Shown in pieces: positions 6,964 to 43,097 of a stretch of DNA of 46,549 nt. The notes beneath the pieces are model-generated. The model was given only the letters and a program-made list of their open reading frames with translations. It was not told the origin of the DNA and did not search any database. The DNA comes from Gemmatimonadota bacterium (lineage in GTDB: Bacteria > Gemmatimonadota > Gemmatimonadetes > Longimicrobiales > RSA9). The DNA lies in contig JBDLIA010000017.1 of the NCBI GenBank assembly GCA_039715185.1, positions 1 to 46,549 of the forward strand, written 5' to 3'. A program made the translations under genes and the position numbers. Each line of letters begins with the position of its first letter. The stretch's first letter is position 1.

Positions 6964-7928
6964 CCGGCGCGGCCATGCCCGGCGCCGCCGCCACGCGCTC
7001 CGACCGACTGTGGACCGTGGCCCAGGTGGTCGCGTTCGCCGCCACCTTGGTGCTGCTGCTCGGCATGCTGCGGACGCCCGACACGGCGCTCGGCGTTCTC
7101 TGGAACGTCCTGATTCCCCTGGTGCCCGCGTCCCTGCTGATCTCGCCCCAGTTGTGGCGCAACGTGTGTCCGCTCGCGACCGCCAACATGGCGACCAACG
7201 GCCTGGTCGGAAACCGAATCCCGTCCGAGAAGGCCATGCGAGTCGCCGCCAGCGGCGGCATGGTTCTGCTGCTCGTTCTGGTACCGGCGCGCAGGTTCGT
7301 ATTCAACACGAACGGCCCCGCGCTGGCGCTCACCGTCGTGGCGGTGGTCGTCGCCGCTCTCGTGCTCGGCGCCGTGTTCGACGCCAAGGCCGGGTTCTGC
7401 AACGCGGTCTGCCCGGTGCTTCCGGTCGAACGGCTGTACGGTCAACGCCCGCTGCTGCAGCTCGGCAACCCGCGCTGTCCCCGCTGCACGCTGTGCTCGG
7501 TGAAGGGCTGCATCGATCTGTCGCCCCAGAAGGCGGTGCAGGCCGCGCTGGGTCGGAAGGGGCGATCACACGGCTGGCTCATCACCCCCTTCGGGGCGTT
7601 CGCAGCCGGCTTTCCGGGCTTTGTGCTGGGGTACTTCCGCGCCGTGGACGGACCGCTGTCCAGCGCCGGGGCCGTGTACCTGGAGGTCTTCGCCTGGATG
7701 GCCGCGAGCTACATCCTGACGGTGCTGATCGTGCGCCTCTTCGGTGTGGGCTCGGACAGAATGATGCCCGCGCTCGCGGCCGCGGCGGCCGCGCTCTACT
7801 ACTGGTTCGCGGCGCCCTCGCTGGCTGACTTCGCGGGACTGCCGCAGGGCGTCGCGGTGGCGCTCCAGGTAGCGTTCCTGACCCTGGTCGCCGTGTGGTA
7901 CGGACGCGGGTTGAGAGCCCGCGCGTAG
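6960..7928 (+). CDS. Polytopic membrane protein with a 4Fe-4S-type cysteine cluster
   Basis: GTG 6960 overlaps the preceding TGA. The 322-aa product has about seven hydrophobic segments. Between them are cysteines arranged as NVCP (Cys70), FCNAVCPV (Cys147, Cys151) and CxxCxxCxxxxC (173, 176, 179, 184). This recalls the NapH/NosR/RdxA group of membrane ferredoxin-like proteins, which pass electrons across or along the membrane. Only one full four-Cys cluster is evident. Coupling to a homocysteine methyltransferase-like gene is unusual and might mean reductive activation or a shared metal or sulfur context; that is inference. A 75-nt repeat element follows its 3' end. Confidence 0.8.
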   Translation: MTGAAMPGAAATRSDRLWTVAQVVAFAATLVLLLGMLRTPDTALGVLWNVLIPLVPASLLISPQLWRNVCPLATANMATNGLVGNRIPSEKAMRVAASGGMVLLLVLVPARRFVFNTNGPALALTVVAVVVAALVLGAVFDAKAGFCNAVCPVLPVERLYGQRPLLQLGNPRCPRCTLCSVKGCIDLSPQKAVQAALGRKGRSHGWLITPFGAFAAGFPGFVLGYFRAVDGPLSSAGAVYLEVFAWMAASYILTVLIVRLFGVGSDRMMPALAAAAAALYYWFAAPSLADFAGLPQGVAVALQVAFLTLVAVWYGRGLRARA

Positions 7929-8000
7929 ACCGGGAGGCGCTGGGGCGATCTGGGTCGGCAGGCGGCGGCGCCTGATCCTATTCGACTAGACCCCCCTTTT

Positions 8001-8075
8001 TCGCGATTCGCAACTCGTTCGAAATTCGAACGAGTTCGCATCTGCCTATTTGGGAGGTGCGAGCGCCTTGAAGCT
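8001..8075 (+). repeat. 75-nt palindromic repeat element, copy A
   Basis: It begins TCGCGATTCGC and continues with the 25-bp core: arm AACTCGTTCGAA (8012-8023), centre A, arm TTCGAACGAGTT (8025-8036), which pairs perfectly. A 31-nt spacer and TTGAAGCT (8068-8075) complete it. The 5-nt T run just before it is shared with copy B. It lies between convergent genes and overlaps the last bases of the minus-strand gene. Confidence 0.8.
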
Positions 8076-9063
8076 ACACACCCGCAACCTCATTGGAGCG
8101 GTGAGCCAGCGCGCGAAACCCCTCCAACGCCCCACCGACCGCTCCGACGGCCACGATCGTCCACGCGAACACCGACAGGGAAAAAGCGAGCGCCTGGCCT
8201 CCCGACACCCCGTAGGGTGCGAGCAGGGCGAACAAGGTCGCATCGCGCACGCCCAGACCCGCGACGGCTATGGGCAGCATGGCGGCCAGCATGGCGGCGG
8301 AGCGAACCCAGGCGATGGTCAGCAGGGAAACGTCCAGGCCGAGCGCCCACGCCAGCGCTTGATAGGCGAATACCCCGAACGCGTGGGCCACCAGCGACGC
8401 GACCGCGACGCCGAGCAGAACGCGACCGGGCACCCGCCGCGAGCGCGCCGCCACGCTCGCCAGGGCGAGCCTTTCGGGCAGGCGCGGTGCGAGCCACTCC
8501 GCCGCCTTGGACGCTCGCCTGCTCAGCAGCACGACGTGGGCGAGCAGCAGGATGACGAGCGCCGCGGCCATCACGGCGAGCGCGGCGCGGCCGTCGATCG
8601 GGTCCGCCAGCAGCCAGGCGGCCACCCCCACCGCGCACAGCGCCGCGGCGGCCGCCAACCTGTCCAGGACGAGCACGACCGCCCCGGCAGAATACTCTTC
8701 GCGCGGGCGCGCGATGCGGTAGTAGCGGACGGCCGCGGCGGCGACGTTGCCGGCCGGCAGAAACATCCCGTAGAACAGCGCCGCCAGGTTGATCCGGAAC
8801 ATCGCCGCAAGCGATGCCCCGAGCCCGAACGCGTCCGAGAGCAGCTTGAGGCGACCGGCCACCGCGAGCTGCGCGGCCAGGCTGAACGCCAGCGCCGCGG
8901 CGGCCCAACGCAGCTCGATCGCCCTCGTGGCGTCCACGATCGCGGACACGGAGACCGCGCGCAGCAGCAGGAAGAGGATCAGCGCTGCTGCTCCCCAACG
9001 CAGAAGCAGAAGCAAGCGCCCACGCCCGGGCCCACGCCCCGGCAGGAAGGACGTGGTCGTCAC
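8074..9063 (-). CDS. LPG-synthase-type (AglD/MprF-like) integral membrane protein
   Basis: GTG 9063 overlaps the stop of the upstream gene (GTGA). The 329-aa product is almost entirely hydrophobic, with about eight transmembrane helices. It has landmarks of the lysylphosphatidylglycerol synthase TM region family: NLAALFYGMFLPAGNVAAAAVRYYR, an ALDR-like VVLVLDRL, and SAAMLAAMLPIAVAGLGVRDA near the C-terminus. Family members flip or modify lipid-linked substrates, often next to glycosyltransferases. Here the partners are a phosphodiesterase-like enzyme and an M28 peptidase, so the substrate is unclear. It is the last gene of the three-gene operon. Confidence 0.85.
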   Translation of the reverse strand: MTTTSFLPGRGPGRGRLLLLLRWGAAALILFLLLRAVSVSAIVDATRAIELRWAAAALAFSLAAQLAVAGRLKLLSDAFGLGASLAAMFRINLAALFYGMFLPAGNVAAAAVRYYRIARPREEYSAGAVVLVLDRLAAAAALCAVGVAAWLLADPIDGRAALAVMAAALVILLLAHVVLLSRRASKAAEWLAPRLPERLALASVAARSRRVPGRVLLGVAVASLVAHAFGVFAYQALAWALGLDVSLLTIAWVRSAAMLAAMLPIAVAGLGVRDATLFALLAPYGVSGGQALAFSLSVFAWTIVAVGAVGGALEGFRALAHRSNEVAGV

Positions 9064-37557: not shown

Positions 37558-39768
37558 TCAGGGCCCTTCGGGATCCAGCCCCAACACCTTGATCAGAAAG
37601 GCGATCTGGTCGGCCCCGGTCTCTGCCCGTTCCTCAGGCGTCCCGCCGGGCGAGTGACCCGCTTCCCACGCCACCTTGAGCAACTGCGGGTGCCCACACT
37701 CGCGCGTCGCCGCTCCGTCGGGTCCCTGCATGGCGGCGGCGAACTTGTAGGCGTGGACCGGTGAGGTGACTTCGTCGAGCGCTCCGGCCTGGACGATCAT
37801 GGGCGGGTAGCACACCGATGGATCGATACCGTGGTAGGGAGAGATGCGCCTCAGCACCTCGAACTCCTCCGGGTCATCGGCGGTCCCGAACTCGCTCGGC
37901 CAGCCGCCGAACAGGTGATAGCGCAGCATGTCCAGGGTCGGGTACTGGATCAGCGTGGCGGCGAACAGCTCGGGGCGGCGCATGGCGCTGATCGCCGGCA
38001 GCACTCCGCTGGCGCTGCCGCCGTTGCCCACCAGGTAGCGGGGCGACGTGCGGCCGCTCTCCACGAGGAACTCCGCGGCGGCGATGTAGTCGCCGATCAC
38101 CGTCTCCTTGTTGAGGATCCGGCCCGCCTCCCACCAGTCGTTGCCGTACTCGCCGCCTCCGCGGATGCCGGGCAAGGCGTACACGCCGCCCAGGTCCAGC
38201 CAGGGGATGAACTCGGGCTGATACCAGGGAAACGCGGACCAGCCGGAGGCTCCGTAGGCGTACATGAGGACGGGCGTGTTGCTGTCCGGCTCGATGTCGG
38301 CTCGGTGCACCAGGAACATCGGCACCCGGGTGCCGTCGAAGCTCTCGTAGAACACCTGCTCGAACGTGTAACGGTCCGGATCGTAGGTCAGTTCGGGACG
38401 CTCGTACAGCTCGGTGGCGCCGCTCTCGATATCGAGCTGGTAGACGGAGCCGGGATCGTACAGGATGTTCAGCCCGAAGTGGACGGTGGTCCGGTCGGGG
38501 CTGTCCGGCAGGCCGAACAGGAAGCCCTGGCCGGTGAAGTCGATCTCGTGGCGCAGCGAGCCGTCCAGCTCGTGGATACGCAGGGTCGAGCGCGAGTCCA
38601 CCCTGTAGGGGACGAGGTAGGCGTTCTTGGCCAGGCTCACCCAGCCGATCGGGAAGTCGCGCTCGGGGATGATCTCGACCCACTGCGAGGGATCCGGTCT
38701 AGCCGGGTCGATCTTGACCAGGCGTTGGTTGGGCGCGTCCAACGTGGTGCGCACGATCAGCTCGTCGCCGGCGGTTCCTTCGAAGGTGTACATGGCGTCG
38801 TCGGTGTCGATCAGCTCGACCACGTCGCCCCACGGGCGCGTTCCCTTCGTCATCGGGAAGTAGTAGAGACGGTTGCCCGGCATAGCCGGATCGGTGAGCG
38901 AAAGGGTCAGGTAGCGCCCATCCAGCGATATCGCAGGGAAGAAGAACCAGCTCGGCTGATCGGGCCGCTCGTAAACGAGGACATCGCTCGACTGGTCCGT
39001 GCCCAGGCGATGGTAGAACAGCTTCACGTCGGACACTGCGGTGCGCAGGCCGCCGGCGGCCTCGGGGACCTCGAAGCGCGTATAGAAGAACCCGTCCGCG
39101 GTCGCGTCCCAGGCAATACCGCCCCTACCGGTCAGGTAGCCGTTCAGGGCTTCTGGTCCCCACTCGCCCGTCGTGGTGTCGAGCACCCGAAGCTCGGGCC
39201 AGCGAGACTGCGCCTCGGCCACCTGAACGACCATCTTCGATCCGTCCAGGCTCAGGGTCGTGCCCCTGATACGCTGTGTTTCGACAAGCGCTTCGTGGAA
39301 GTCGATCAGCAGCTCACGCTCGCCGCCGCGCTCCACCCAGATCTGCTGCAGGATCTTGCCCGCCGGCCGAATCGTCACGAAGGAGCGTTCGCCGCGATGG
39401 ATGGGCGCGGAGATGCGGTCGTAGGTCTGGTAGTCGAGGATGCGCCGCTCGGTCTCCGCGTGGCCTTCCACGTCGGCGACGAACTCCTTCAGTAGGCCAT
39501 CCTGCTCGCGGAGCCAGGCCTGTGCGTCGTCCGAGTCGAACTCCTCGAGCCAGCGGTAGGGGTCGGCGACATCGGTACCGTGCATGTCGTCGATCCGGTC
39601 GACGGTCTTGGCGTCCGGATACGCCATCGCGAAGCTCGGCGCCTCGCCCGGGCCGTCGGACCCGAAGGCCGTGTCGCAGGAGACGAGCATCACAGCCAGC
39701 GCGGCCACGGCCGTGAGGCCGGAGATCCGCCGGGTCGTCCGAGCCGCGGAGAGATTCGTCGCTCGCAT
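37558..39768 (-). CDS. Prolyl-oligopeptidase-family (S9) lipoprotein peptidase
   Basis: ATG 39768 has GGAG 6 nt upstream and a probable -10 box TATACT (minus strand, 39810-39805). The 736-aa product has a lipoprotein signal (VAALAVMLVSC), an N-terminal propeller domain including PYRWLEEFDSDDAQAWL, and a C-terminal alpha/beta-hydrolase. The triad is Ser585 in GNGGSASG, Asp665 in GALDEVTSP and His705 in AGHSPGG. The nucleophile elbow is GGSASG rather than GGSxGG, and the Arg that follows the catalytic Asp in prolyl oligopeptidases (DDRV) is Val here. Cleavage of short, perhaps Pro-containing, peptides outside the cytoplasm is expected. Confidence 0.92.
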   Translation of the reverse strand: MRATNLSAARTTRRISGLTAVAALAVMLVSCDTAFGSDGPGEAPSFAMAYPDAKTVDRIDDMHGTDVADPYRWLEEFDSDDAQAWLREQDGLLKEFVADVEGHAETERRILDYQTYDRISAPIHRGERSFVTIRPAGKILQQIWVERGGERELLIDFHEALVETQRIRGTTLSLDGSKMVVQVAEAQSRWPELRVLDTTTGEWGPEALNGYLTGRGGIAWDATADGFFYTRFEVPEAAGGLRTAVSDVKLFYHRLGTDQSSDVLVYERPDQPSWFFFPAISLDGRYLTLSLTDPAMPGNRLYYFPMTKGTRPWGDVVELIDTDDAMYTFEGTAGDELIVRTTLDAPNQRLVKIDPARPDPSQWVEIIPERDFPIGWVSLAKNAYLVPYRVDSRSTLRIHELDGSLRHEIDFTGQGFLFGLPDSPDRTTVHFGLNILYDPGSVYQLDIESGATELYERPELTYDPDRYTFEQVFYESFDGTRVPMFLVHRADIEPDSNTPVLMYAYGASGWSAFPWYQPEFIPWLDLGGVYALPGIRGGGEYGNDWWEAGRILNKETVIGDYIAAAEFLVESGRTSPRYLVGNGGSASGVLPAISAMRRPELFAATLIQYPTLDMLRYHLFGGWPSEFGTADDPEEFEVLRRISPYHGIDPSVCYPPMIVQAGALDEVTSPVHAYKFAAAMQGPDGAATRECGHPQLLKVAWEAGHSPGGTPEERAETGADQIAFLIKVLGLDPEGP

Positions 39769-39846
39769 CAGGAACTCCGTTCTTCTTGATGAAATTTTTC
39801 GTTCAGTATAGATGCCGCTGACTTCTGATCGGTTGCATTGGTGGTC

Positions 39847-41499
39847 CTACGAGCGGAGGCTCAGGCTTTCGGCTGCGGCCGCGCGGACCCGGTCGTCGGG
39901 GTCATTCCGGGCCTCCCGCAGCGCGCGGTCCGGCAGATAGCCGCTAGTGCCACGCAGTCCGCGCACGGCGACGAGCCGCGTGTCCGGATCCGCGCTGCGC
40001 ACGACCAGATCGGAGAGCCGTTTGATCGCGGGTACGCACTTGATCTCGCCGATCGCCCAGGTGGCGGCCAGCCTGATCCGGGCGTCGGTGGAGCCGGTCA
40101 GCTCTTCCAGCTCGTAGAAGGCGCGCCGGTCGCGGGTCCGACCCAGGGCCAGGATTACCGCCTCGCGCACGCGTGCGTCTTCGTCGTCGAGGAGGCGCAT
40201 GAGGGGGACGGTGGCCATGCGCGAGCCCACGTCCACCGCGGCGGTCGCGGCGGTGGCCCGCACCTCGGCTGACTCGTCTCCCAGCAGCCTCACCACCGCG
40301 GACAGCGCGCGGACGTCGGCAAGCTCGCCTAGCGTCCGCGCGGAGCCGGCGCGGACCTCCGCCTCCGGTGCGGACACCCCGACCAGGGCATGCGCACGGC
40401 GGGCATCCCTGTCAGAGCCGAGGCCGAACGCGACGACGGCGAGCGCGCCGGCCAGGCCGACGACCCCGGTGCGGACGAGCAGCGCCCTGGAAGCCTGCTC
40501 CAACCCGCGAAAGCGGAGCACGCCGCGCACGCGATCCCGCAGCGCCGACCCCGACGCCATCGTCATCACCGGGCCCGGCCGCAGCCGCCGCGGCAACGCT
40601 TCCCGCGCGGCTTCGAGCAGCACCTCGGCGTATGCGCGACGACGGGTGCCGTGCCGCAGCACGATCTCGTCGCACGCCGTCTCCGCCTCCGCGCGCGCCC
40701 TGCGGGCGGCCCACAGGACGGCCGGGTTGGGCCAGTAGAGCGCGCACGCGATCTCGCCGGCCAGGTACGTGACGTAGTCCCACCTGCGCACGTGGGCGAG
40801 CTCGTGAAGGAGAACGGCGCGCAGCCTGTCCCTGTCCCAGGAGGCCGCCGCCTTCGGCAACCCGACCGTGGGCCTCAGAATGCCCCAGCACGCGGGCGCG
40901 GGAGCAGCCTCGACCGCGACCAGGCTGACCGCTCGCCGGATGCCCAGCTCTTTGGCCACTTCCGAAGCGACCTGGTGGGCCGCATCGTGCCGCCAGGGGG
41001 GCGACCGCCTGCCGGTGATGCGGAGCGCCACGAGCCTGCCGATCAGCCTGGCGAGCAGGATTCCCGCGCCGATTCCCCAAGCCAACAAGAGCAGCGCGAC
41101 CCACGGCAGCGCGGGGCCCTCGGCGCGCTCGCCCGCGACCGACGTTGCTTCTGACTCCGCCTGGAACGGAGCGGGCGCGAGAGGCGAACGGAGGCCACGC
41201 GCGTCCATCAGCACGGGCTCAGCCGCGGTCCTCAGGGGCGCGGCCGGCGCTTCCCACAGCTCGGCGGGGATCACCCCCGCCACGAACTTCCGGTCGGGGA
41301 CCAGCGCCGAGGCCGCCGGCAGGATGAGGAGGCCGGCGAGCAGGCCGCCCCACGCCACGTGACGCAGCGACGCACCTCTGCCCGTGGCCATCCGCGCGAG
41401 CGCCCACGCGACGAGCACCAGCGCGGTGCCGCGCACGAAGATCCACACGCCGAGCTCCAGCACGACGCCGCCGGTCATCCACGCAAGGAGCGCGCTCAC
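39847..41499 (-). CDS. M56 (BlaR1-like) membrane metallopeptidase fused to HEAT repeats
   Basis: GTG 41499 overlaps the BlaI-type stop (GTGA). The 550-aa product has four to five transmembrane helices, a cytoplasmic M56 site HELAHVRRWDY (His232-His236 with its Glu) and a downstream ETACDEIVL. Instead of the extracellular penicillin-binding domain of BlaR1, residues about 385-550 are HEAT-like repeats (VRAGSARTLGELADVRALSAV, VRATAATAAVDVGSRMATVPLM, VREAVILALGRTRDRRA, IRLAATWAIGEI). These probably lie outside after the last helix near 360 and could sense or scaffold partner proteins. It is coupled to the BlaI-type repressor. Confidence 0.9.
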   Translation of the reverse strand: MSALLAWMTGGVVLELGVWIFVRGTALVLVAWALARMATGRGASLRHVAWGGLLAGLLILPAASALVPDRKFVAGVIPAELWEAPAAPLRTAAEPVLMDARGLRSPLAPAPFQAESEATSVAGERAEGPALPWVALLLLAWGIGAGILLARLIGRLVALRITGRRSPPWRHDAAHQVASEVAKELGIRRAVSLVAVEAAPAPACWGILRPTVGLPKAAASWDRDRLRAVLLHELAHVRRWDYVTYLAGEIACALYWPNPAVLWAARRARAEAETACDEIVLRHGTRRRAYAEVLLEAAREALPRRLRPGPVMTMASGSALRDRVRGVLRFRGLEQASRALLVRTGVVGLAGALAVVAFGLGSDRDARRAHALVGVSAPEAEVRAGSARTLGELADVRALSAVVRLLGDESAEVRATAATAAVDVGSRMATVPLMRLLDDEDARVREAVILALGRTRDRRAFYELEELTGSTDARIRLAATWAIGEIKCVPAIKRLSDLVVRSADPDTRLVAVRGLRGTSGYLPDRALREARNDPDDRVRAAAAESLSLRS

Positions 41500-41882
41500 T
41501 CGTCGTCCTCCCGCTCCGCCTCGATCCAATCCGCGATCTCGTCCAGCTCTGTCTCGTCGAGTTGGTTCGACGACAGGTCGAGAAGCGTCAGCACGGCCTT
41601 GGACGACGCTCCGGCGAAGTACGTCGACAGCAGGTGGCGCAGCGCCTTTGCGGCCGCCGCGTCCGCGGGAACGGTTGGCCGGTAGATGTGCCTCGGCCCA
41701 TCGCTCCGGTGGGTGAGGATTCCCCTCTTCTCCAGCTTGCCGAGGGTGACCCGGACCGAATCCTCGGAAGTGCCCGGCGGCATCGCGGACGCGACCTCAG
41801 AGGCGGAGGCTTCGCCCAGGCGGTAGAGCGTCTCCAGGAGGTTGCGCTCGAGGCGGCTGAGTAGGGTCGGGTCGTAGGTCAT
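41496..41882 (-). CDS. BlaI/MecI-family repressor
   Basis: ATG 41882 begins a 128-aa protein with a BlaI winged helix: LSRLERNLLETLYRLGEASASEVASAM, SEDSVRVTLGKLEKRGILTHRSDG, then HIYRPTVPADAAAAKAL and a C-terminal dimerisation helix. It would repress its own operon and be cleaved when the M56 partner is activated. No beta-lactamase lies next to it, so the trigger is probably not an antibiotic. Its promoter region is 41883-42134, shared with the divergent reductase gene; I saw no classical BlaI box there. Confidence 0.92.
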   Translation of the reverse strand: MTYDPTLLSRLERNLLETLYRLGEASASEVASAMPPGTSEDSVRVTLGKLEKRGILTHRSDGPRHIYRPTVPADAAAAKALRHLLSTYFAGASSKAVLTLLDLSSNQLDETELDEIADWIEAEREDDE

Positions 41883-42064
41883 GCGCTGTGCTGAAGCTTT
41901 TATTTCTGAACCTGAGCCTAGTGTGGACCCGGGCGTCGGTCAAGCGGCGGCGTGCCCGGTCACGCGGCGCGGCGTCCGCCGGGTCAAGCTGTGCGGCCTC
42001 ATCCCGTCCATGGCCCGTTATGTTGTCCCGTCGACGGAACGGTAGCCGCTCGAGGGCATTGTAG

Positions 42065-42089
42065 AACTCGTTCGAGTTTCGAACGATCT
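42065..42089. promoter_or_regulatory. Degenerate palindrome related to the 75-nt repeat core
   Basis: AACTCGTTCGAG, a T and TTCGAACGATCT resemble the repeat core but without its flanks: the preceding TCGCGATTCGC is absent and the distance to CTGAAGC is 37 nt, not 31. It lies about 45-70 bp upstream of the reductase start and may be an operator. GAACGATC also matches the TetR half-site at 14557. Confidence 0.4.
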
Positions 42090-42134
42090 CCTCATCGCCG
42101 AATCGTGGCAGTACGAGGGCAGGAGGCTGAAGCA

Positions 42135-43097
42135 GTGACGATCGCGATCATCGGAGCGGGAGGCGTCGGTGGCTACTTCGGCGCGCGCTGGGCGGCCGCT
42201 GGGCACGACGTCACGCTGATCGCGCGCGGCGATCACCTGGAGGCGATCCGCGCGCGCGGGGTCCGGCTGGTCAGCCCGGCGGGCGATGCCGTCGTCCCGG
42301 TGTTGGCCGTGGAGGACACGAGCGGCATCGGGCAGGTCGACGCCGTGCTCGTGGCCACCAAGACCTGGCAGCTCCCCGACGCCGCCGGTCATCTACGCGC
42401 CCTGGTCGGCCAAGACACGGTCGTGTTCGGCGCCCAGAACGGCGTCGAGGCTCCCGACCAGTTGGCCGCTGTCGTCGGTCGCGAGAGAGTCCTCGGCGGC
42501 ACCTGCCGCATCATCGCCTTCATCGCCGAACCGGGGGTCATCAAGCACGTGGGGGTCGAGCCTACCCTGCTCGTGGGCGAACCGGACGGTGGGGACTCGG
42601 GGCGCGTTCGGGCGCTCGAGGCGGCGCTCGACCTGGGCCCGGCGGCGCGGCTCATCGCCTCCGCCGACATCCGCGCGGAGCTGTGGCGGAAGTTCCTGTT
42701 CTTCGCGCCGATGAGCGGCGTGGGGGCCGTGACGCGAGCCACGGTGGGCGCGATCAGGGAGCAGACGGAAACACGCACCATGCTCCGGGCGGCTTTCGAT
42801 GAGGTCTACGCGGTCAGCGTCGCAGCCGGCATCGGCCTCCCGGAGGGCGTGGTCGACACCATCGACGCGTTCGTCGACACGCTGCCTCACGACGGCACCA
42901 GCTCGCTTCAGCGCGACTTCGACGCCGGCCGCAGGACGGAGCTCGACGCGCTGGCCGGCGCGATGACGCGGCTGGGCCGAAAGCACCGCGTGCCCACGCC
43001 GGTGCACGATCTCCTCTACGCGGCGCTGCTTCCCATGGAGCGGAGGGCGCGCGGCGAGGTCGAATCGTCACACCCCCGAATGCGGCTGCGGGGATGA
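42135..43097 (+). CDS. 2-dehydropantoate 2-reductase family protein (PanE/ApbA-like)
   Basis: GTG 42135 has AGGAGG at 42121-42126. The 320-aa protein has an N-terminal NADPH-binding loop IAIIGAGGVGGYFGARWAAAGH, then VATKTWQL, NGVEAPDQL and VLGGTCRI. The C-terminal helical domain has the catalytic-region Lys (ELWRKFLFFAPMSGVGAVTRA) and QRDFDAGRRTELDALAG. That is the ketopantoate reductase layout, but paralogs reduce other 2-oxo acids. No panB or panC is adjacent, so the pantothenate role is not certain. Confidence 0.9.
   Translation: MTIAIIGAGGVGGYFGARWAAAGHDVTLIARGDHLEAIRARGVRLVSPAGDAVVPVLAVEDTSGIGQVDAVLVATKTWQLPDAAGHLRALVGQDTVVFGAQNGVEAPDQLAAVVGRERVLGGTCRIIAFIAEPGVIKHVGVEPTLLVGEPDGGDSGRVRALEAALDLGPAARLIASADIRAELWRKFLFFAPMSGVGAVTRATVGAIREQTETRTMLRAAFDEVYAVSVAAGIGLPEGVVDTIDAFVDTLPHDGTSSLQRDFDAGRRTELDALAGAMTRLGRKHRVPTPVHDLLYAALLPMERRARGEVESSHPRMRLRG

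Follow-up and report, generated by a model that had tools for sequence, protein, structure and literature searches.

Within the window analysed here, that is, the whole stretch of 46,549 nucleotides of a Gemmatimonadota contig, three consecutive genes of the reverse strand encode a BlaI-family repressor, an M56 protease ending in a HEAT-repeat domain and an S9 prolyl-oligopeptidase-like protein, with operator-like dyads at the promoter of the first gene and in front of the third. The genes, the protease motif, the HEAT domain, the predicted BlaR1-like fold, the dyads and a gene order shared with a locus of another phylum (L159) are read from the sequence, and they suggest, at a probability of about one half, a BlaR1-type repressor-cleaving receptor that would have been rewired from beta-lactams to a periplasmic ligand and an exported peptidase; for this receptor we infer the ligand, the binding of BlaI to the dyads, its cleavage and the feedback and, by homology, the membrane topology.

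The repressor (41496..41882, minus strand) has 128 aa and passes the Pfam threshold of PF03965 with 68.4 bits (cut-off 22.6), and the M56 protein passes that of PF05569 with 92.8 bits (cut-off 31), so that the BlaI/M56 pair described in the initial annotation is real. Its coordinates were also correct, except that the M56 start is better placed at the GTG at 41499, where the blaI stop is shared as GTGA in a 4-nt overlap. A promoter-like TTGACC-17-TAGGCT (41915..41943, minus strand), recognised by a scripted consensus match and in the sequence, precedes blaI, whose divergent neighbour is a PanE-like reductase (ORF 41952-43097; Pfam). In the alignment, Leu100 of the window BlaI falls on F102 of MecI, the cleavage-site Phe (P1'), which is almost invariant according to the accessible part of PMC9834060; cleavage with Leu at position 100 may still be possible.

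The M56 protease (39847..41499, minus strand; 550 aa) carries the gluzincin motifs HExxH and ExxxD, and the catalytic HELAH claimed earlier was found at residues 232-236 (40792..40806, minus strand), with H232, E233, H236, E273 and D277 invariant in the alignments A1, A3 and A5. In its AlphaFold model, built from 32 aligned sequences with a mean pLDDT of 86, the four membrane segments fit the long helices 2-37, 43-66, 131-165 and 338-357, the last of which is, by the model helix and hydropathy, the predicted TM4 (40429..40488, minus strand). Residues 13-321 of the model superpose on BlaR1 of Staphylococcus aureus (8exs) with Z 20.0 and rmsd 3.7 over 254 residues. The NCBIfam BlaR1 model, however, yields only 59.6 bits vs a cut-off of 400 and aligns to residues 136-301 only; given this score and the Leu of BlaI at the MecI Phe position, the window M56 is no beta-lactam receptor by the criteria tested.

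The sensor position is taken by a HEAT solenoid (residues 363-550; 39850..40413, minus strand), which matches HEAT_2 with 84.4 bits against a Pfam cut-off of 27.7. The model shows a helical solenoid at about 363-550, with a block pLDDT of 82 at residues 361-370 and of 92-98 thereafter, and residues from about 362 to 550 superpose on alphaRep HEAT proteins with Z up to 25.6; the replacement of the penicillin-binding domain by a HEAT array was thus borne out. The same array had been called an output or sensor end, of which the sensor part holds, the output being the cytoplasmic protease. HEAT arrays may have a structural role, and a HEAT array that responds to a protein ligand is a plausible guess. 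In the model the first HEAT helix begins about 5 residues past TM4, a spacing that would couple the two tightly. The available text of PMC9834060 describes BlaR1 as N-out/C-out, with the sensor outside and the autocleavage site between the protease and TM4. The K/R residues in the M56 flanks (0 before TM1, 4 after TM3, 4 before TM4) mostly agree with a BlaR1-like topology, the flank after TM4, with 3 K/R and 2 D/E, being not decisive. Since the model superposes on BlaR1 and most flank charges agree, the repeats are predicted outside the inner membrane, probably facing the periplasm, and not in the cytoplasm, a placement that the initial annotation had considered; the topology is taken from the homologue.

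HEAT-ended M56 proteins are not unique to this locus and recur in Gemmatimonadota and a few other phyla: HEAT_2 matched 28 of the 45 M56 proteins of one set (mostly Gemmatimonadota and relatives) and 5 of the 35 of another (mostly other phyla), counts that are not population frequencies, as both sets were collected by similarity to the window M56. Another M56 protein of the window's genome (L046:3737-6313, C71) bears C-terminal repeats around 'DSDHYxAE' with no Pfam match, a different repeat in the sensor position.

The third gene, absent from the initial annotation, lies 78 bp downstream of the M56 stop on the same strand (37558..39768, minus strand) and encodes 736 aa with both S9 domains over the Pfam cut-offs (PF02897, 232.6 bits; PF00326, 113.6 bits), the nearest solved structures being prolyl endopeptidases. 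Its hydrophobic N-terminus, ending in LVSC, which we take to be lipobox-like, gives the peptidase an exported look. The Ser and His regions of the triad are kept, and the Asp region reads DEVTSP vs DDRVVP; with the position of the catalytic Asp assumed by us, this residue may have been shifted or replaced. As claimed earlier, neither a beta-lactamase nor a penicillin-binding protein gene is adjacent, none being found by Pfam among the seven neighbourhood proteins scanned. In the S9 tree the window protein groups with those of L159 and L296 (three rows, 100/99); the window row is long-branched and its exact sister uncertain (89/48). These three share NGGSASGVL, DE(T/V)T(S/T)P and AGHS, whereas most other rows have GGSNGG-like, DDRVVP and AGHGAGK-like motifs, and may be noted as an S9 subfamily by the first two motifs (window 37558-39768; L159:2737-4914; L296:4652-6793). 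Only the window and L159, among 32 S9 loci examined with flanks of up to 1.5 kb, have an M56 gene in the flanks, and 30 of the 32 have neither BlaI nor M56 there; likewise, the 10-11 kb read around S9 in L295-L298 (10 kb for L296) contain neither gene.

Relatives were sought in 61 and in 395 genomes and in a named genome collection; the loci with a HEAT-bearing M56 fall into two groups. Group A comprises 12 loci with M56-HEAT proteins of similar size, 501-724 aa (L087, L088, L089, L090, L091, L093, L094, L107, L113, L116, L145 and L159, with L113 and L116 incomplete), whose BlaI proteins are 46-55% identical to that of the window where measured. In the M56 tree of 90 cores the window stands with these 12 loci and L130, L162 and L061, at a fork drawn open (SH-aLRT 89), the window row being long-branched and in no starred set. 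The HEAT label requires 6 changes on this tree vs 23.5 in shuffles, the label being our own profile with at least 3 repeats, by which L094 and L159 count as 'none' despite a Pfam HEAT_2 match. Group B has mostly longer HEAT arrays, and among its 13 tree rows there are 8 (L045 of the window's genome, L096, L099, L102, L103, L104, L105 and L154) in which the gene next to M56 encodes another HEAT protein; of the remaining rows, three lack a gene on the same strand within 500 bp, a different protein follows in one, and one is unclear. Several of these HEAT proteins carry before the repeats an N-terminal 'ARGxPPVxCxLA'-like segment, seen by eye and possibly an unnamed domain (L102:7620-9017, L099:4457-5815, L104:3929-5302, L045:4624-5391, L154:8422-9315).

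The third gene varies within group A. It is DUF5916 in L088, L089, L090, L093, L113 and L145 (Pfam) and in the truncated L094 (BLAST), a cytochrome P460 protein in L091, and in L087/L108 a HEAT protein of 282 aa that has a hydrophobic N-terminus and precedes DUF5916; this HEAT protein shares 70% identity with the HEAT part of the M56 encoded just before it. For L087/L108, L091 and L159 we set the gene starts manually, from the sequence. In the L108 locus (7892-8740; the same as L087, G191) an operator dyad lies in the first codons of the HEAT protein, which looks like a copied and secreted sensor ectodomain. Beyond group A, DUF5916 follows M56 in L051, L052 and L053 (Pfam) and in L251, L255, L307 and L308 (BLAST). 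The same domain is also seen straight after BlaI with no M56 in the window's genome (L049:3649-6948, C24), where a TGCTA-type site lies at the blaI start, and in the same order in L256. The DUF5916 target, presumably an outer-membrane barrel, gave an unusable AlphaFold model (pLDDT 39), and no paper on DUF5916 was found in the full-text literature search.

The blaI promoters of group A contain a common 16-bp dyad, e.g. TGTAAAAAATTTTACA, from which a symmetrised matrix was built with eight blaI-upstream sites (L107, L108, L109, L111, L112, L114, L116 and L145), the window being excluded. A second dyad, tied to the gene after M56, was found in all of the 10 examinable group A loci (scores 18.9-30.3), either inside that gene, within some 40 nt of its start, or up to about 55 nt before it; examinable were the 10 of 12 loci with a same-strand gene within 500 bp after M56, leaving aside L107, which has no such gene in that distance, and L116, whose sequence ends inside the M56 frame. 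When the locus's own blaI site was left out of the matrix, the eight second sites rescored in this way still reached 18.9-26.5. In 613,605 bp of other loci only 4 matches of at least 14 occurred, of which two are the L091 sites; this locus belongs to group A, judging from its BlaI (54%) and these putative sites. No site of at least 14 was found in L130, L162 and L061 of the window's tree clade (best scores 12.1, 11.3 and 13.4). In AT-rich loci (L107, L296, L298, L301, L309, L310, L311) matches of at least 14 are common, and the matrix is therefore informative in GC-rich DNA only; a dyad upstream of the S9 gene of L296, with a score of 14.2, was not counted, as its contig is AT-rich (GC 0.47). 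A further arrangement was seen upstream of the blaI gene of the group A locus L093 (6447-6485), where two adjacent dyads, TGTAGAATATTCTACA and TGTACAAATGTCTACA, lie on opposite strands.

The window itself has one such candidate operator between M56 and S9 (39790-39805, unstranded; score 14.1, rank 2 of the window), for which 0.08 occurrences are expected per 46.5-kb window (first-order Markov, 60 runs); when the intergenic stretch was shuffled 5000 times, 61 shuffles reached its score. Another, weak candidate lies in the blaI promoter (41892-41907, unstranded; score 6.7, rank 5), with 3.8 expected per window length and its score reached by 64 of 5000 local shuffles. It stands 7 nt after the -10 element, the same spacing (7-8 nt) being found in L108, L111, L112 and L145; this gap is 0 in L116 and L091, and no good promoter was recognised at the blaI genes of L107, L109, L114 and L159. 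Both window dyads are weaker than those of the relatives (14.1 and 6.7 vs 15.5-31.2), and the best 16-mer of the window, at 2807 with a score of 15.3, falls within the final part of an ORF and could be a chance match. The putative BlaI sites are placed at blaI and before the S9 gene and not at a resistance gene, a point that the initial annotation had left for checking.

Another operator pattern, TGCTA-N6-TAGCA, was rejected for the window, where it has 0 matches with up to 1 mismatch. In the window's genome it occurs, with up to 1 mismatch, at 11 places, and three other blaI genes account for five of these; the control with the reversed pattern gave 125 matches per strand and has a different base make-up, so that no enrichment is drawn from it. 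One of the TGCTA-type dyads of this genome (L198:3272-3287, C23) coincides with the start of a gene whose product matches S41 peptidases weakly (30.7 bits vs 24), possibly a further BlaI target. The group A type TGWAAA-N4-TTTWCA was found with 1 mismatch at two places of the window's genome, with no relative of BlaI, M56, S9 or DUF5916 within the 6-8 kb read, the window's own dyads being too far from this pattern for a genome-wide search. Elsewhere, the third gene is preceded by a TGCTA-N6-TAGCA match (up to 1 mismatch) at a distance of 22-63 nt in L051, L052, L170 and L307 and of about 400 nt in L255; no match was seen in that position in L251 or L308. Judging by the matrix dyads of group A and these TGCTA-type sites, a pair of putative sites, one at blaI and one at the third gene, recurs as a design and is realised with two site types.

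The same trio occurs in Rhodothermaceae isolate Ww644 (L159), of a different phylum. Its BlaI is 55% identical to that of the window, its M56 matches HEAT_2 at 1.1e-12 and the window M56 with 35% identity over 418 aa, and its S9 protein is 44% identical to that of the window over 717 aa. The two dyads, at 629 and 2669, both score 23.6, and the second lies 42 nt after the M56 stop vs 41 nt in the window. In the phylum of L159, a search of 296 genomes gave 17 matches (E <= 1e-25), of which the 16 outside the genome of L159 were all partial, with no S9 relative in the 12 loci read.

In the receptor reading, BlaI dimers at rest would occupy two dyads, one where the blaI-m56-S9 operon begins and one just before S9. 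The M56 protein would cross the inner membrane with four helices; its zinc protease would lie on the cytoplasmic side and its HEAT solenoid on the periplasmic side, the solenoid being nearly directly joined to the last helix. A peptide or protein bound by the solenoid would shift TM4 and open the protease to BlaI; BlaI would then be cut, both dyads freed, and the operon with its exported S9 peptidase made, which may break down the signal, a part played by beta-lactamase in the classical system. This reading is supported by the M56 motif, the BlaR1 fold, the invariant metal-site residues, the HEAT domain right after TM4 and the flank charges, by a dyad that was defined without the window, recurs in 10 of 10 examinable relatives and falls between M56 and S9 in the window, by the promoter spacing of the window's blaI dyad, which is like that of four relatives, and by the L159 trio with both sites, L159 and the window being the only two of the 32 S9 loci with M56 in their flanks. 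It is weakened by the lower scores of the window dyads, the top 16-mer lying elsewhere (2807), the Leu at the BlaI cleavage position, the DEVTSP of the S9 protein in place of DDRVVP, and L130, L162 and L061 having no site of at least 14.

The HEAT domain might instead bind the exported product of its own operon (DUF5916, a secreted HEAT protein or S9) before its assembly or use, so that export is matched to need as a kind of envelope quality control and no outside peptide is involved. This is unlikely, and what keeps it alive is above all the third gene of L087/L108, the copy of its sensor's HEAT domain, besides the exported look of the third genes in the loci examined and the frequency of HEAT proteins as the next gene in group B. 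However, the targets vary within one HEAT clade, from DUF5916 and HEAT proteins to cytochrome P460 and S9, and DUF5916 also follows M56 proteins that have no HEAT repeats by our own profile (L051, L052, L053); for these two reasons a ligand other than just the product of the operon is favoured.

Slightly more doubtful still is that the pair regulates only itself, the adjacency of S9 and its dyad being due to chance and the HEAT array serving for structure or dimerisation without sensing. The weakness of the window dyads, the prevalence of S9 loci lacking BlaI and M56 and the structural part that HEAT arrays may play would fit this, but L159, although from another phylum, has the three genes in the same order together with two strong sites, and the second dyad is present in every examinable relative. 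A sensor of the cell wall or of beta-lactams after all, in which the HEAT domain would recruit a penicillin-binding partner encoded elsewhere and the output would protect the wall, is very improbable. BlaI/M56 pairs are indeed known for beta-lactam sensing, as far as the accessible parts of PMC7593790 and PMC9834060 go; against it stand the missing penicillin-binding domain, the lack of a beta-lactamase or PBP among the seven neighbouring proteins scanned, the low NCBIfam BlaR1 score and targets that are S9, DUF5916 and HEAT proteins.

Compared with known systems, the locus resembles BlaR1/BlaI and MecR1/MecI of S. aureus in its BlaI-family repressor, in an M56 protease with HExxH and ExxxD and, as regards BlaR1, in the predicted four-helix membrane domain (Z 20 over 254 residues). 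It differs from them by the HEAT solenoid in place of the penicillin-binding sensor, by the absence of an adjacent beta-lactamase or PBP gene, by the Leu for Phe at the cleavage-aligned position and by a third gene, S9, in the same orientation with a dyad of its own. The operons of BlaI_0696 and BlaI_1845 in Clostridium thermocellum are, in the available text of PMC8457756, likewise small autoregulated BlaI regulons with inverted-repeat sites, containing BlaR1 and genes not known for resistance, as here, so that small BlaI regulons and paired dyads are already known; their motifs, GTCTAT and GACTAT, differ, their sites lie upstream of the operons, and that text does not mention a HEAT sensor. 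The operators of CopY/BlaI/MecI are also 16-bp dyads of dimeric repressors of the same wider family, but with a central TACA-N2-TGTA, while the putative operators described here read TGWA-N8-TWCA, with half-sites facing the opposite way (PMC7253601, accessible part). The group B loci (e.g. L102, L104, L170 and L045 of the window's genome) share BlaI, an M56 protein with HEAT in the sensor position and an exported-looking downstream gene, and differ by mostly longer HEAT arrays, a downstream gene that is often a HEAT protein and operator-like sites that, where found, are of the TGCTA-N6-TAGCA type. HEAT-ended M56 proteins are already in the databases, a plain profile search finding them; no paper on them was found in full-text searches judged by titles, a coverage outside which most subscription journals lie.

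A broader view, held tentatively and at less than even odds, is that BlaI/M56 is at root not a resistance device and would be a modular one-step transmembrane signalling system of outer-membrane bacteria, with swappable ectodomains (here a HEAT domain reading a periplasmic peptide or protein), a repressor that is cut and an exported target with its own operator, some lineages adding a secreted copy of the ectodomain under the same operator as a decoy or co-receptor. BlaR1/BlaI is known mainly as a resistance switch, and a lineage with HEAT sensors and exported targets would show the use of this design beyond resistance. In such systems the signal may be found by pull-down with the HEAT sensor instead of being guessed from a drug, and the matched operators would offer direct and cheap predictions.
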